Below, piece by piece: positions 44,992 to 51,929 of a DNA stretch of 64,000 nt. The stretch comes from Phycisphaerales bacterium (GTDB lineage Bacteria > Planctomycetota > Phycisphaerae > Phycisphaerales > UBA1924). Each line of letters begins with the position of its first letter. Position 1 is the stretch's first letter. The stretch spans positions 124,001 to 188,000 of the forward strand of contig JAJDDN010000008.1 in assembly GCA_029260295.1 (NCBI GenBank), given 5' to 3'. A program made the translations under genes and the position numbers. The notes under the pieces are model-generated. The model did not search any database and had not been told where the DNA came from. It worked only from the letters and a program-made list of their open reading frames with translations.

Positions 44992-45201
44992 ATGAGCAAC
45001 TTCAATCATCCCAACTCAACACCGAGCAGCTTTCGCTCAAAACTGGGGTCCTATGCGACCGGTTTGGCGATCGGATGTATCCTGATGGGATTCTTCTTCT
45101 ACCAAAAACACCGCGCCCAGCAGCGGAACTCTCAACACATCGAGCAACTCCTCGATCAGCAACAGCAATCACCCAACACCCCGGTGGAATCAACCCCGTG
45201 A
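44992..45201 (+). CDS. small membrane protein
   Basis: 69 aa. One hydrophobic segment (about 20-36, SYATGLAIGCILMGFFFYQ) with a polar tail rich in Gln (HIEQLLDQQQQ). I do not recognise it. TACAGT ends eight bases before the ATG. Its stop codon overlaps the GTG start of uvrA, so the two are translationally coupled. Confidence 0.6.
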   Translation: MSNFNHPNSTPSSFRSKLGSYATGLAIGCILMGFFFYQKHRAQQRNSQHIEQLLDQQQQSPNTPVESTP

Positions 45202-48200
45202 GCCCGGCTTCCAAAACATCTCAAAAAGCATCCAAAAAAACGACCAAGAAGAAAAAAGTCGTCAAAAAGAAGATCGCAAAGCCCGCGGCCAAGTCTGTCG
45301 TTGACCCAACCAAATGCATCCGCATCCGCGGCGCCAAAGAACACAACCTCAAATCCCTCGATATCGACATCCCCCGCGACCAACTGGTCATCATCACGGG
45401 GCTCTCTGGATCGGGCAAATCTTCCCTCGCCTTTGACACCATCTTTGCCGAGGGCCAGCGCAAATACATGGAGTCGCTCTCCGCCTACGCCCGCCAGTTC
45501 CTCGATCAGCTCAAAAAACCAGACATCGAAGAAATCGAAGGCATCCCCCCGACCATCGCCATAGAGCAACGCTCATCGTCCCACAACCCCCGCTCGACCG
45601 TCGCGACCACCACCGAAATCTACGACTACCTCCGCCTCCTCTACGCCCGCTGCGGCACGCCCCGCTCATGGGCACCCACCAAGAAAAAGAAAGACGGCAC
45701 CGTCACCGCCCGCTCCGGTCGACCCATCGAATCGTCGTCGGCGACCCAAATCGTCGATCATGTTATGGAATTCGGCAAAGGCACCAAGCTCATGATCCTG
45801 GCTCCCGTCGTTCGTGCCAAAAAAGGTTTCCATAAGGACACCCTGGAAGACTTCACCAAGCAAGGCTGGAACCGAGCCCGCGTCAACGGTGACATCACCG
45901 ACCTCCGTCAGGCCCTCAAAGAAGACACCGAGAACCCCCTCAATCTCCACCGTCACAAGAAACACTCGATCGATGCGGTCGTTGATCGGATCGTCATCAA
46001 GGACGACGCCCGCCAGCGGCTCGTCGAATCCATCGAAGCCGCTCTGCGACTCGCCGAGGGATCAGTCATCATCGCGATCAACGATCCAAAGGACAAAGAC
46101 CTCTGGACCGACCACGCCTTCAGCGAGCACTTCGCAGACCCGGACAACCCGGAGATTTCACTCAGTGAGCTCTCTCCGCGATTGTTCTCGTTCAACTCAC
46201 CCTTCGGCGCATGCCCGGATTGTCACGGGCTCGGAGTGATCCTTGAGTTCGGCGATGAACTCGTCGTCCCCAACAAAGATGTCGCGATCCTCAACAACGC
46301 GATCCAGCCCTGGAAGAAGAACGGCCCCGGCGGGATGATCTACCCACGCATGCTCAGGAGATTCTGCCGGGCCTTTGAGATCCCGCAGTCCATGCACCTC
46401 AGTGCCATGTCTGACGACCTCTTCAACCTCCTCATGCACGGCACCGAATACGCTAACGATCATCTCACAGGAAAGAAGAAGTACCGCAAGCAATGGGACG
46501 GCGTCTACCCCATGCTCCACAACTGGTTCCACAAAACCGAATCAAGCTGGGTCAAGGACCACCTCCACCAATACCAACAAGAAATCACCTGCCCAAAATG
46601 CTGCGGCGACCGTCTCAAAATCTCCGCACTCCATGTGACAATTGATTCGACGCACAAAGCCGACATGAACAAAGCCGGCTCCCCGAACATCATCGGACGC
46701 CCAACAAGCGACGGCACCACCCTCAACATCTCCGAACTCGCCCGCCTCAATATCACCGACGCGATCGACTTTATTGACAATCTCAAGCTCTCGACCGAGC
46801 ACGCCCATATTGCAGAAGCAATCTTGCGAGAAATCATCAACCGGCTCAGGTTCCTCGAATCCGTCGGGCTTGATTACCTCTCGCTCGACCGCCGCACCGC
46901 GACACTCTCAGGCGGAGAAGCCCAGCGCATCCGCCTCGCCACCCAAGTCGGATCGGGACTCGTCGGCGCGTGCTATGTGCTCGACGAACCCACCATCGGC
47001 CTCCACCAACGCGACAACGCCCGCCTCATCCGAACGCTCCGCCACCTGACCGACATCGGGAACGCCGTGTTGGTTGTCGAGCACGACGAGGACACGATCC
47101 GAGCCGCGGATCATGTTATTGATATTGGGCCTGGTCCGGGTGTCCATGGCGGGACGGTCGTAGCGCAGGGTTCAATCGACGACATCATGAAAGCGAAGAA
47201 CTCGCTGACCGGCGATTACCTTGCCGGGCGTAAGAAAATCGAAGTGCCAAAGACCCGCCGCAAGTTGAACATGAAGAAGACGATGACCGTTAAGGGCGCC
47301 AAGCACAACAATCTTCAGAACATCGATGTCCCCTTCCCCATCGGGGGCATGATCGCCGTCACCGGCGTCTCGGGCTCAGGCAAATCGACTCTCGTCAACC
47401 AAATCCTCCTCCGTGCCGCCAAGCAGCATGTGATGGGCACCGCCGCGTCCCGCAAAACTCAGCCTGGCGAGCATTCGCGCATTACGGGTCTTCAGCACAT
47501 CGACCGGATTATCGAGGTCGATCAATCCCCGATCGGCCGCACACCACGCTCCAATCCAGCTACTTACACAGGCATCTTCGACGAGATCCGCAAGGTCTTC
47601 ACCGCCACCAAAGAATCCAAGATCCGCGGCTACAAGCCCGGCCGATTCTCATTTAATGTCGCCTCAGCAAAGGGCGGCGGCCGCTGCGAAGCGTGCTCAG
47701 GCCAGGGCATGAAAAAAATCGAAATGCACTTCCTCCCCGATGTCTTCGTCGAGTGCGAGGTCTGCCACGCCAAGCGATACAACCGCGAAACGCTGGAAGT
47801 GAAATACCGAGGCAAGAGCATCGCCGATGTCCTGGCGATGACCGTCGAAGATTCCTGCGACTTCTTCGAGAACCACCCCAAGATCCTCCGCTTCACCAAA
47901 TGCCTGAGAGATGTGGGCTTGGGATATATCACCCTCGGGCAACCCTCAACGACTTTGAGTGGAGGCGAAGCCCAACGCGTCAAACTCGCGACAGAACTCG
48001 GCAAAGGCACCAAACACGACGGCACCCCCAGCTCCGAGCACACCCTCTACATCCTCGACGAACCCACCACCGGGCTCCACTTCGAGGACATCAACAAACT
48101 CATAACCGTTTTGAACCGCCTCGCCGATGCGGGCAACACGCTGATCGTCATCGAGCACAACCTCGATGTCATCAAATGCGCCGACTGGGTCATCGACCTC

Positions 48201-48311
48201 GGCCCCGAAGGCGGCGACAACGGCGGCACACTGCTGGCAACAGGAACACCCGAAGAAGTGGCCAAGGTGAAGGCGAGTTATACCGGGCAGTATCTCAAAG
48301 GGATGCTCTGA
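45198..48311 (+). CDS. uvrA: excinuclease ABC subunit A
   Basis: ABC ATPase that finds DNA lesions and loads UvrB. GTG start overlapping the previous stop (GTGA); the earlier in-frame ATG at 45075 is less likely. 1037 aa, with about 45 lysine-rich residues (KTTKKKKVVKKK) ahead of the usual CIRIRGAKEHNLKSLDIDIP. Both ATPase halves are complete: GLSGSGKSSLAF and GVSGSGKSTLVN, two LSGGEAQR signatures, and Walker B regions. Zinc modules are CPDCHGLGV/CPKCCGDR and CEACSGQGMK with CEVCHAKRYN. uvrB is at 29119. Confidence 0.96.
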   Translation: MSPASKTSQKASKKTTKKKKVVKKKIAKPAAKSVVDPTKCIRIRGAKEHNLKSLDIDIPRDQLVIITGLSGSGKSSLAFDTIFAEGQRKYMESLSAYARQFLDQLKKPDIEEIEGIPPTIAIEQRSSSHNPRSTVATTTEIYDYLRLLYARCGTPRSWAPTKKKKDGTVTARSGRPIESSSATQIVDHVMEFGKGTKLMILAPVVRAKKGFHKDTLEDFTKQGWNRARVNGDITDLRQALKEDTENPLNLHRHKKHSIDAVVDRIVIKDDARQRLVESIEAALRLAEGSVIIAINDPKDKDLWTDHAFSEHFADPDNPEISLSELSPRLFSFNSPFGACPDCHGLGVILEFGDELVVPNKDVAILNNAIQPWKKNGPGGMIYPRMLRRFCRAFEIPQSMHLSAMSDDLFNLLMHGTEYANDHLTGKKKYRKQWDGVYPMLHNWFHKTESSWVKDHLHQYQQEITCPKCCGDRLKISALHVTIDSTHKADMNKAGSPNIIGRPTSDGTTLNISELARLNITDAIDFIDNLKLSTEHAHIAEAILREIINRLRFLESVGLDYLSLDRRTATLSGGEAQRIRLATQVGSGLVGACYVLDEPTIGLHQRDNARLIRTLRHLTDIGNAVLVVEHDEDTIRAADHVIDIGPGPGVHGGTVVAQGSIDDIMKAKNSLTGDYLAGRKKIEVPKTRRKLNMKKTMTVKGAKHNNLQNIDVPFPIGGMIAVTGVSGSGKSTLVNQILLRAAKQHVMGTAASRKTQPGEHSRITGLQHIDRIIEVDQSPIGRTPRSNPATYTGIFDEIRKVFTATKESKIRGYKPGRFSFNVASAKGGGRCEACSGQGMKKIEMHFLPDVFVECEVCHAKRYNRETLEVKYRGKSIADVLAMTVEDSCDFFENHPKILRFTKCLRDVGLGYITLGQPSTTLSGGEAQRVKLATELGKGTKHDGTPSSEHTLYILDEPTTGLHFEDINKLITVLNRLADAGNTLIVIEHNLDVIKCADWVIDLGPEGGDNGGTLLATGTPEEVAKVKASYTGQYLKGML

Positions 48312-48801: not shown

Positions 48802-49272
48802 ATGACCACAACCAACACACTCCCGATCACCAACCGCGTCAACCGGATCAAAGCCGGGAGCGATCCCGAACTCATCTGCGAGATGCCCTCAGGATACGCC
48901 ATCCTCGGCAAATATCAGCCCGATCCCATCACCGGCTGCTGCATGCTCCTTCCCAAAATCGTCGTCGCCTCCCCCAATGACCTGAGCCACGCAGACCGCG
49001 GCCAGTTCTTCAGTGACCTCACACTCCTCGGCGACGCGATCATGCAAGCCACAGGATCGACCCGCATCAACTACCTCGTCCTCTGCAACCAGGTCCCCGA
49101 ACTCCACGGCCACTGCATCCCACGCTTCGACAGCGAAGACTCCACCAAACGAATGCAAGGCCCCTTCGAGGCCTACGACTTCGGAAACGCCCGAATCGCC
49201 GATGCAAGCGGAGCGGATCAAGAACTGTACCAGAAACTCAAACAAACACTCCAATCGTTGCTCAACGGTTGA
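48802..49272 (+). CDS. HIT-like nucleotide-binding protein
   Basis: 156 aa. The strand-helix arrangement and the segment INYLVLCNQVPELHGHCIPRF correspond to the HIT core (family: HxHxHxx). His102 and His104 are present; the third His is Ile here. GCCMLLPKIVVASPNDLSHA is the usual strand and turn before the helix. HIT enzymes hydrolyse or transfer nucleotides; without the third His the activity may be altered. Substrate unknown. Confidence 0.66.
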   Translation: MTTTNTLPITNRVNRIKAGSDPELICEMPSGYAILGKYQPDPITGCCMLLPKIVVASPNDLSHADRGQFFSDLTLLGDAIMQATGSTRINYLVLCNQVPELHGHCIPRFDSEDSTKRMQGPFEAYDFGNARIADASGADQELYQKLKQTLQSLLNG

Positions 49273-49326: not shown

Positions 49327-49340
49327 GGTTCAAACCAAAG
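49323..49340. repeat. short inverted repeat next to the tRNA 3' end
   Basis: CTTTGGTT and AACCAAAG are separated by two bases, next to the discriminator base of tRNA-Gly on the minus strand. It may form a trailer hairpin removed in 3' processing. Confidence 0.4.
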
Positions 49341-49410
49341 CGGGTGAACGGACTCGAACCGTCAACATTCAGCTTGGAAGGCTGACGCTCTACCATTGAG
49401 CTACACCCGC
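49339..49410 (-). tRNA. tRNA-Gly(UCC)
   Basis: Cloverleaf on the minus strand: acceptor GCGGGTG/CACCCGC, D arm GCTC/GAGC, anticodon stem TCAGC/GCTGA with loop CTTCCAA (anticodon TCC), T arm GACGG-TTCGAGT-CCGTT. Discriminator U at 49339 agrees with bacterial glycine tRNAs. CCA is not encoded. 72 nt with discriminator. Confidence 0.96.
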
Positions 49411-49456: not shown

Positions 49457-51232
49457 TCAAACCGGTTTGATCGATCGGATCGCCATGAACATCGGGATCT
49501 CTATCCGTGCCTTATTCTCAGCATCGGCGCGTGGGCCGGGCTGGCTCACACGCTTGCTCGACCATTCCTCGACGGCATCAATCATCATCCCGCTGCTGGC
49601 CATCGCGTTGATGTACGCACCCATCGGGCGGTGGTGGGTCTGGGTTGTGATTGCTGTGGCACCCGAGCTCACCTGCCCGGGGTTCATCACGATGTCTGTT
49701 GTTCGGCTGGTCATGTAGGTGTCGACCCTGCGGAACTGCACCGGCTGGCGGGTGCGTTCATCCAAGAGCCAGCCCCACGCGGTCGCGCCCGGGTTCCGGA
49801 ATGCCGGGTGGATGATCACGCTGACCATCTTCCCGCCGGGCTTGAGCCGGGCCATTGCTCCGGCGAACACCTCTTCAATTTTATCTATATTCATCAACGC
49901 GAGCACGCACACCACTGCGTCATATTGTTCATCTCCAAGATCAAGATCACCAAGTGTCCGGGCATCGCCGACCACATATGAAATGGATTCAGGCGATTGC
50001 CCGTGAGCGCGTTCGATGAGTCTTTCGGAGAGGTCGACGCCGGTCGCGGTTGCCCCGGGTTGCTTACCGATCATGTGCCGAGCAACAAGACCCTGCCCGC
50101 AAGCAATATCGAGCAGCCGATGGCCGCTCTCAAGCCCGATCAATCGTTCAACGCCAGGAAGCACGAGGTTCTCGTGGTGATCCGACCCTTTGACTGAGAG
50201 CAGGTTGTCGTACCATCCTGCGACCCGGTCCCATCCTTCTTCATCAGCATTTTTGGGAAGCTCGGCTTCCTCGCTCGCCATAAGAGGTGCGGGCTCGACA
50301 CCCATAACACTCCAGAACGACCGAGGCGCTGGCACACGGATCCGCGAAACTTTCTCAGTCTCTGGATCCTCATACCGAATCTCAAAGGCATGCATCCCCA
50401 AGCGATACAAATCATCCCGGGTAGACCCGAGATCCTTATCGCCAACGATTGGATGCCCGATGCTCGCCAGGTGCTGGCGGATCTGCCCATCAAGGTCAGG
50501 CCTCGCGCGAACCTGTAATAGCGAGAGCTCGCCGTTGGTTTCGAGAACACGGAAGTGGGTAACAGGGTTGGCACCGGTGCTGGTGCTCCCGACAACCTTT
50601 CCATTAATCGAAGAGCCTGATTTGGCGATGTCTTCGTCGAACGCGCCTTCAACAACACAGAGGTAGTTGGTCTCAGGCCGGGTCAACTGCCGGGGTGTGT
50701 CGGTCTCGTCGCGTGTCTTGACGAGCAGCACAGCGCCCGAAGCGAGCGTGTCGATCTCATGAGCCGGACGCATCTTCTCCCTGCGAACAAACGCCAACTG
50801 CCACACCGATTCTCGGAGCGTGTTGTGATCTTCCCCACGGATCGGAAGCCCCGCCGGCTTGTCAACCACGCACACCCAATCGTCCTTGAAGACCACATTG
50901 GCCTTGGGAGGCGTCGGAATCTTCTCATCACGCTGATCGCGTGGATCTCTTTGGTCGTAACGCCCGCCCTGCTGATTGCCACGGTCTCCCCCGTAGCCGC
51001 CCTGCTGGTCGCCGTACCCGCCCTGTCCTCTGGGTGGTCCACCACGCCCACCGCCGCCACCATACCCGCCGCCGTGTCCGCCGCCGCCATATCCGCCACC
51101 GTGTCCGCCACCACCTTGGCCACCGCCGTACCCGCCGCCGCCGCCACCTCCACCAAATGATGGTCGGTCTTGCCCGCGATTATCTCCAAATGAAGGCCGC
51201 CCACGATCGGGGCGTGAATCAAAGTTTGACAT
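49457..51232 (-). CDS. fusion: Gly-rich N terminus, RluA-like pseudouridine synthase, methyltransferase
   Basis: 591 aa in three parts. Residues about 1-105 are low-complexity Gly with Arg, Gln and Tyr, like RNA-binding RGG tails. Residues about 110-310 are an RluA-type pseudouridine synthase: VVDKPAGLPI, the catalytic loop AHEIDTLASGAVLL with Asp161 (family HRLDxxTSG), and DGQIRQHLASIGHPIVGD. Residues about 333-591 are a class I methyltransferase with LLDIACGQGLVARHM (motif I), TGVDLSERLIERA and YDAVVCVLALMNI. The ATG at 51232 gives the natural N terminus MSNFDSRPDRG; the longer frame runs antisense to coaB. It overlaps coaB by 14 bases. The RNA target of either activity is unknown. Confidence 0.8.
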   Translation of the reverse strand: MSNFDSRPDRGRPSFGDNRGQDRPSFGGGGGGGGYGGGQGGGGHGGGYGGGGHGGGYGGGGGRGGPPRGQGGYGDQQGGYGGDRGNQQGGRYDQRDPRDQRDEKIPTPPKANVVFKDDWVCVVDKPAGLPIRGEDHNTLRESVWQLAFVRREKMRPAHEIDTLASGAVLLVKTRDETDTPRQLTRPETNYLCVVEGAFDEDIAKSGSSINGKVVGSTSTGANPVTHFRVLETNGELSLLQVRARPDLDGQIRQHLASIGHPIVGDKDLGSTRDDLYRLGMHAFEIRYEDPETEKVSRIRVPAPRSFWSVMGVEPAPLMASEEAELPKNADEEGWDRVAGWYDNLLSVKGSDHHENLVLPGVERLIGLESGHRLLDIACGQGLVARHMIGKQPGATATGVDLSERLIERAHGQSPESISYVVGDARTLGDLDLGDEQYDAVVCVLALMNIDKIEEVFAGAMARLKPGGKMVSVIIHPAFRNPGATAWGWLLDERTRQPVQFRRVDTYMTSRTTDIVMNPGQVSSGATAITTQTHHRPMGAYINAMASSGMMIDAVEEWSSKRVSQPGPRADAENKARIEIPMFMAIRSIKPV

Positions 51233-51929
51233 GAGAGGTAGACTCCGTGTTTGTATGTGCAGGACTGATTCGCTCAGCGACGAGCGAATCGAGATGGCCA
51301 AGCAGCCAAGCCGCAAACGCGTCTTTGCTGATCGATCCATCAGTGGTTTGGTCAATGTTCATCCCACGATCCTGATTGCCTATCAGCCGTGCATGGATCG
51401 CGTCGGCATCCATCGTTTCGAGCGGGTTGGCAACGATCAGATCGATATTTTTTTCACCCAGTTTCCTCAGGGCAGAGGCCTCGAGTTCATCAGCCGGCTC
51501 AAGAGCGAATCCGACGAGCAACTGGTTGCTGCGGGCATTTTTCGAGCATCCCGCGAGGAGATCGGGCGTCGATTCGAGCGAGATACTGAGATCTCCACCG
51601 GTCCGCCGTCGTTTGCCCGAGCAGTCCACCTCGCACGCTTTGGGCCGATAATCTGCGACCGCCGCCGCCATTACCAGGCAGTCGCACCACGCAAGGTGCT
51701 GCCCTAGAGCATCTTGAAGATCCTGTGCCGATGCGAACCGGATAACATCTACCCCATCCTCTATAGGAAGGACAGCGTTTGGTCCGAGCAGAATTCGGAC
51801 TTCCCACCCCAGTTCCGCCGCCCGATCGGCCAAGCTGGACCCCAACTTCCCAGACGAACGATTCCCGATAAAGCGGACCGCATCAATGGGTTCATAGGTC
51901 GGGCCAACTGTAATCAAAATCCGTGCCAT
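51219..51929 (-). CDS. coaB: phosphopantothenoylcysteine synthetase domain protein
   Basis: 236 aa. Joins cysteine to phosphopantothenate with CTP in coenzyme A synthesis. Only the CoaB half of the usual CoaBC fusion is here: ITVGPTYEPIDAVRFIGNRS near the N terminus, VMAAAVADYRP, VGFALE and NPLETMDADA late. No CoaC (flavoprotein decarboxylase) half is attached, so that is presumably separate. AGGA six bases before the ATG. Divergent from the pilus operon, with a 251-base gap. Confidence 0.9.
   Translation of the reverse strand: MARILITVGPTYEPIDAVRFIGNRSSGKLGSSLADRAAELGWEVRILLGPNAVLPIEDGVDVIRFASAQDLQDALGQHLAWCDCLVMAAAVADYRPKACEVDCSGKRRRTGGDLSISLESTPDLLAGCSKNARSNQLLVGFALEPADELEASALRKLGEKNIDLIVANPLETMDADAIHARLIGNQDRGMNIDQTTDGSISKDAFAAWLLGHLDSLVAERISPAHTNTESTSHVKL

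Follow-up and report, generated by a model that had tools for sequence, protein, structure and literature searches.

A pseudouridine synthase-methyltransferase fusion of Planctomycetota in which the synthase half may be turning into a docking module

We analysed a gene in a 64,000-nucleotide stretch of DNA from a Phycisphaerales bacterium (contig JAJDDN010000008.1, positions 124,001 to 188,000; hereafter the window) that joins an RluA-type pseudouridine synthase domain to a class I methyltransferase in a single frame. We give a probability of roughly 55% to the reading that, in the clade of the window protein, the synthase half has turned or is turning into a docking module without catalytic activity that serves a working methyltransferase. 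Across this clade the alignments show no base-flipping Arg in the synthase, and several lineages have lost further catalytic residues, whereas the key residues of the methyltransferase and the fold of the synthase persist. In the proposed mechanism, the methyltransferase would be the working enzyme and would act on a putative RNA substrate. The synthase half of the window protein would not isomerise uridine at a useful rate and would present RNA or a ribonucleoprotein to the methyltransferase, and the Gly/Arg tail may be a flexible arm that adds RNA binding. The features of the gene and its nearest neighbours are as follows, in window positions.

49457..51232, minus strand: fused gene, 591 aa, with N-terminal tail, RluA-type synthase domain and class I methyltransferase (open reading frame and Pfam)
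50918..51232, minus strand: Gly/Arg-rich low-complexity tail, residues 1-105 (composition)
50315..50905, minus strand: RluA-type pseudouridine synthase domain, residues ~110-306 (PF00849; model and PDB matches to RluC, RluA and RluD)
50756..50758, minus strand: Glu159 codon, at the base-flipping Arg position, R62 of E. coli RluA (alignment with E. coli RluA)
50750..50752, minus strand: Asp161 codon, catalytic Asp, RluA D64 (same alignment)
50663..50665, minus strand: Tyr190 codon, RluA Y96 (same alignment)
50477..50479, minus strand: Arg252 codon, motif III, RluA R165 (same alignment)
49460..50257, minus strand: class I SAM methyltransferase domain, residues ~326-591 (Pfam and structure matches)
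50090..50110, minus strand: methyltransferase motif I, DIACGQG, residues 375-381 (alignment)
51219..51929, minus strand: upstream CoaB-like gene, 236 aa (Pfam PF04127, DFP)
49339-49410: tRNA-Gly(TCC), after the fused gene

The fused frame is intact, starting at an ATG and running without an internal stop, and a GGAG can be read 10 nt 5' of the ATG. The end of the CoaB-like gene, whose sole Pfam domain is PF04127, overlaps the start of the fused frame by 14 nt. The two genes are probably co-transcribed, and the CoaB-like gene stands outside the proposed mechanism. Two further frames lie nearby on the plus strand. One (45075-48311), which we take by eye to encode a UvrA-like protein, carries a Lys-rich N-terminal extension of ~70 residues that may reflect the choice of start codon. 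The other (48802-49272) encodes a HIT-domain-like protein that scores 21.3 bits, just below the Pfam cut-off of 21.5.

The initial annotation had described an RluA-like domain keeping its catalytic Asp161 within AHEIDTLASG, followed by a class I methyltransferase in the same protein, and both assignments held. Pfam places PseudoU_synth_2 (PF00849) at residues 121-257 (38.2 bits; cut-off 26.8) and Methyltransf_11 at residues 374-470 (59.7 bits; cut-off 21.2), and alignment with E. coli RluA recovers the catalytic Asp. The NCBIfam model for the RluA subfamily, TIGR00005, scores 84 bits, below its cut-off of 192.7. Besides PF00849, the only Pfam domains found are methyltransferase families, a result that says little about a TrcP-type deaminase, since the TrcP deaminase is reported to lack the usual deaminase motif (PMC9553926). 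A structural model, also suggested at the outset, was built with AlphaFold2 for residues 98-591 from 38 sequences; its mean pLDDT is 86.8 and, because its pTM is 0.56, the arrangement of the domains within it is uncertain. By Foldseek, the first half of the model matches RluC, RluA and RluD and the second half matches methyltransferases of the 3bkw type. Furthermore, VIA-align superposes model residues 9-207 on RluA chain 2i82_C with a Z-score of 20.2 and an rmsd of 2.6 over 189 aligned residues at 23% identity. The second half displays a Rossmann-type fold, the motif I DIACGQG and PDB matches at Z >20, as in class I methyltransferases.

The initial annotation also considered that homologues might encode the domains apart, with the frame joined here only by an error. 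Separate homologues do exist, but the joined frame is conserved: both domains lie in one frame in all 82 proteins examined, from 82 different genomes, so the fusion is no frame error. A match spanning both domains is present in 17 of the 20 other genomes of the genus, and the remaining three (84, 56 and 61% complete) gave weak matches or none. An assembly or sequencing artefact that joined two neighbouring genes would agree with the relatives that carry separate genes and with a synthase broken across two frames in L089 (G261) and at its N-terminal end in L086 (G258), yet the frame shared by so many genomes leaves it a negligible probability. The same-genus genomes and the one-frame proteins together rule out a frame-joining error.

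Homologues (E <=1e-25) occur in 112 of the 136 genomes of the family that are >=85% complete, the source genome included, and are absent from 24. The methyltransferase (E <=1e-25) is found in 74 of 248 genomes of the class, and across the phylum 35 of 343 genomes match at E <=1e-40. Fused proteins also occur beyond the class (L141, L150, L189 and L190), and the named database relatives of the fused protein come from two Phycisphaerales MAGs and one Phycisphaeraceae MAG. We examined 56 methyltransferase loci, four of them from members of the genus. Synthase and methyltransferase share a single frame in 24 loci (L086 counted here), the methyltransferase has no synthase within the stretch fetched in 30, and the two are adjacent genes on one strand in one (L039, G041). 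In the last of the 56 (L089, G261:C387) the synthase is split over two overlapping frames beside an intact methyltransferase. In L086 (G258:C212) the synthase has its N-terminal piece in a different frame, again with the methyltransferase intact; sequencing error or decay could account for either case. Genomes G045 and G106 carry the synthase and methyltransferase genes far apart.

Trees of both domains, which were made quickly, without bootstrap, and contain many open forks, fit a single origin of the fusion. In the synthase-domain tree (70 rows), 42 fused rows fall on one side of a branch with an SH-aLRT value of 91. Closest to them among the non-fused rows are L039 (G041), L165 (G045) and L171 (G106); the genomes of all three encode the methyltransferase separately too. 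In the methyltransferase tree (95 rows), a group with a value of 98 unites 43 fused rows and a single stand-alone row on a long branch, L143. This stand-alone methyltransferase (G445:C226) sits inside the fused clade and possibly lost its synthase half. Repeated independent fusions are not needed, as both trees are consistent with one event; a single fusion followed by inheritance, loss or transfer is the simplest reading of the sequences and the probable one. The other RluA-type proteins of the source genome (L001, L002 and L003) have canonical motifs II and III and lie outside the fused group.

The case for docking begins at the active site. The window protein retains the catalytic Asp (D161), the Tyr (Y190) and the motif-III Arg (R252) and lacks the base-flipping Arg of the HRLD motif, which is replaced by E159. 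The initial annotation had noted a Glu where most synthases have Arg, and the wider comparison bears this out: the R62 position is E in 12, I in 3, D in 2 and F in 1 of the 18 fused proteins of the genus and Arg in none, against Arg in 27 of 28 non-fused RluA-type domains. Motif III is altered as well, reading DLDGQIR in the window protein versus GRxHQ(I/L)R in RluA-type enzymes. Among the 82 fused proteins, 42 keep all four of R62, D64, Y96 and R165, although one of these (L044) departs from the norm elsewhere in motifs II and III, and 40, including the window protein, lack R62; because the added proteins were selected by hand from the matches, the 42:40 ratio is no frequency. Sequential pseudouridylation and methylation is plausible for the 42 canonical relatives, which may pseudouridylate first and then methylate the same or a nearby nucleotide. 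A non-fused RluA-like paralogue (L181, G216:C35; 573-aa frame) reads NAMGTSG at motif II, where the catalytic Asp is absent.

The proteins without R62 have lost further residues: D64 in 10 of the 40, Y96 in 9 and R165 in 10. By parsimony on a tree built without the motif columns, in which some deep forks are weak, the fewest changes are two for the non-canonical state at R62, five for D64, three for R165 and three for Y96. Outside the genus, the 22 non-canonical proteins retain D64 in 13, R165 in 12, Y96 in 13 and R62 in none, while K28, G69 and Q163 are kept in all 22; loss of the catalytic residues beside these invariant positions indicates that constraint has eased on catalysis but not on the fold. 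The methyltransferase shows no parallel decay: the motif I Asp and both of its Gly residues, the H, P and R of HPxxR and the Glu-Trp of EEW are each present in 82 of 82 proteins. The Gly of GRxHQ(I/L)R is changed to Asp in 37 of the 40 non-canonical proteins, and conservation of this substitution points tentatively to a gain of function, not simply to degeneration.

Published biochemistry on related enzymes bears on the missing Arg. The base-flipping Arg is reported to fill the position that the flipped-out base leaves; replacing it by Met or Lys made RluA inactive, and RluB R108A retained 0.6% activity (PMC3919597). Therefore, Glu159 more likely disables the synthase than re-aims it. The same report gives ~3% residual activity for a Tyr-to-Phe variant of RluB (PMC3919597), so a missing Tyr would not by itself show that a synthase is inactive.

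These observations need to be weighed against the possibility that both halves are active, with another residue flipping the base, a new specificity for the synthase and subsequent methylation of the same RNA, much as deamination and pseudouridylation are coupled in TrcP. Another residue could take the place of the Arg, since enzymes of the TruB family are described as flipping with His (PMC3919597). In the genus, D64 is retained in 17 of 18 proteins (one has Glu) and Y96 and R165 in 18 of 18. These are among the most conserved columns, and a structural module would not obviously need them, which argues against docking. That 42 of the 82 fused proteins are canonical at the four residues and that TrcP offers a precedent (PMC9553926) likewise favour two active enzymes, as does purifying selection on the synthase. 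We nonetheless regard activity of both halves as rather doubtful, given the reported need for the Arg in RluA and RluB (PMC3919597), the change from GR to DL in motif III and the five changes of the catalytic Asp on the tree while the methyltransferase was kept. Thus, of the earlier suggestion that the window enzyme merely has a new specificity, the Glu substitution stands, and working pseudouridylation is weakened by the RluA and RluB data and by the losses within the clade.

Selection was estimated as NG86 dN/dS. Five pairs within the genus have dS <1.4 in each of the two domains (L009-L010, L018-L019, L018-L020, L019-L020 and L013-L022). In these, the synthase gave values of 0.02-0.05 and the methyltransferase values of 0.03-0.06, with the synthase lower in three of the five pairs. 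For five pairs outside the genus, they were 0.09-0.37 and 0.07-0.30, respectively, with the synthase slightly higher in each; other pairs were saturated in dS. Purifying selection thus acts on the synthase half about as strongly as on the methyltransferase. Such constraint speaks against junk and would suit either a scaffold or docking function or a changed activity.

For docking, the altered synthase domain would need to bind RNA. Such binding is only putative, and the loss of positive charges at motifs II and III counts against it. We rejected net charge as a measure of lost RNA binding. The mean for the synthase domain is -1.7 in the genus, +9.9 in canonical fused proteins and +8.2 in other non-canonical fused proteins; E. 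coli RluA has +2, the canonical paralogue L001 of the source genome -4, and 19 non-fused domains run from -5 to +17, so that net charge decides nothing.

The N-terminal tail could supply part of the RNA binding. The initial annotation gave it about 100 glycine-rich residues, in agreement with the abundance of Gly and Arg that we find, alongside some Tyr, across residues 1-105. Extensions in the genus contain 21-44% Gly and 10-19% Arg, and that of L195, from a neighbouring genus, has 40% Gly and five RGG. Other relatives mostly carry basic extensions, rich in Arg/Pro or Lys and of varied length, a few of them partly Gly-rich (L044, L216 and L233). Lengths are upper bounds, since extensions were counted from the first Met of the open frame; the L011 sequence is cut by the contig end. 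In L042, a canonical member, the front part of the protein weakly matches S4 (20.9 bits, below the cut-off of 22.8). A basic N-terminal extension thus seems to be old and its strongly Gly-rich form recent. A search of the source genome with residues 1-97 matched only the fused gene, within the limits that low complexity sets on such a search.

The methyltransferase may also act on a protein, for instance a ribosomal one, or on a small molecule, with the synthase-like domain doing no more than tethering it to the ribosome or another partner. Its best solved relatives (3bkw, 3g5l, 3e8s and ToxA) are either unnamed in function or small-molecule enzymes, in keeping with this alternative, as are the 30 of 56 loci in which no synthase was found in the fetched stretch. 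Among solved structures, 3bkw scores best with the profile of the methyltransferase family (98.3 bits) and ranks first by Foldseek E-value. Our search found no named function for this methyltransferase family, and we know of no RNA substrate for it. Fusion to an RluA-type synthase, and adjacency to one in L039, point to RNA. The tRNA enzymes CmoM and METTL6 share the fold at Z 20.5 and 21.3, but small-molecule enzymes match equally well, and the fold therefore cannot tell one type of substrate from another. We consider action on a protein or small molecule unlikely.

Gene neighbourhood yields no functional hint. Neighbours were clustered by single linkage, and antisense frames may be included. 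One cluster with an example resembling the T2SSE-type gene of the window occurs in 21 of the 56 loci, 19 of them from the window's family, and among these 56 loci the stand-alone methyltransferases have no neighbour gene common across families.

Returning to the docking reading, a broader version of it may be put forward tentatively, at well under even odds: the fused family of Planctomycetota would pseudouridylate RNA and then methylate it with a class I methyltransferase, and in one large clade, that of the window protein, the synthase would have been converted to a catalytically inert RNA reader steering the methyltransferase, with forms intermediate in this conversion still in existence. 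The family could show how a docking module may arise from an RNA-modifying enzyme, and the fusion gives the methyltransferase family a candidate RNA-linked role.

Both folds are known. The combination of domains and the graded loss of synthase catalytic residues are absent from the open-access literature among the matches listed. No title listed there describes an RluA-methyltransferase fusion, and no natural RluD-RlmH fusion appears among the literature matches listed. A Trypanosoma fusion was set aside as a precedent because, in the available part of its report, it combines a PUA domain with a methyltransferase and has no synthase (PMC3714255).

The synthase half resembles the RluA family (E. 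coli RluA, RluC and RluD; PF00849, TIGR00005) in its fold and in the positions of the catalytic Asp, Tyr and motif-III Arg. It differs in having Glu for the flipping Arg and DLDG for GRxH, in falling below the TIGR00005 cut-off and in being fused to a methyltransferase. The other half is closest to 3bkw, a SAM methyltransferase of Mesorhizobium loti that, unlike the window protein, stands alone; identity is 26% and the entry title names no function. To our knowledge, the known pseudouridine methyltransferases, RlmH among them, are SPOUT enzymes. A pathway in which one base is first pseudouridylated and then methylated is established in E. coli, where RluD forms pseudouridine 1915 of 23S rRNA and RlmH then methylates it; there, however, two proteins are involved and RlmH is described as a SPOUT enzyme, not class I (PMC5430550). 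As the fused family has canonical and altered members, it could directly test pseudouridine as a prerequisite for later methylation.

Among the literature matches listed, TrcP, the C-to-pseudouridine tRNA editor of Vibrio cholerae, is the only bacterial protein that carries an RluA-type synthase and a second modifying enzyme. In it, a synthase domain paralogous to RluA is joined to a second RNA-modifying domain, a deaminase without the usual deaminase motif, and the two are reported to act in sequence on one nucleotide (PMC9553926). The window protein shares the joining of an RluA-type domain to a second enzyme; it differs in that TrcP combines its active synthase with a cytidine deaminase and a long helical domain (PMC9553926), whereas the window protein has a class I methyltransferase and a synthase that is probably disabled.
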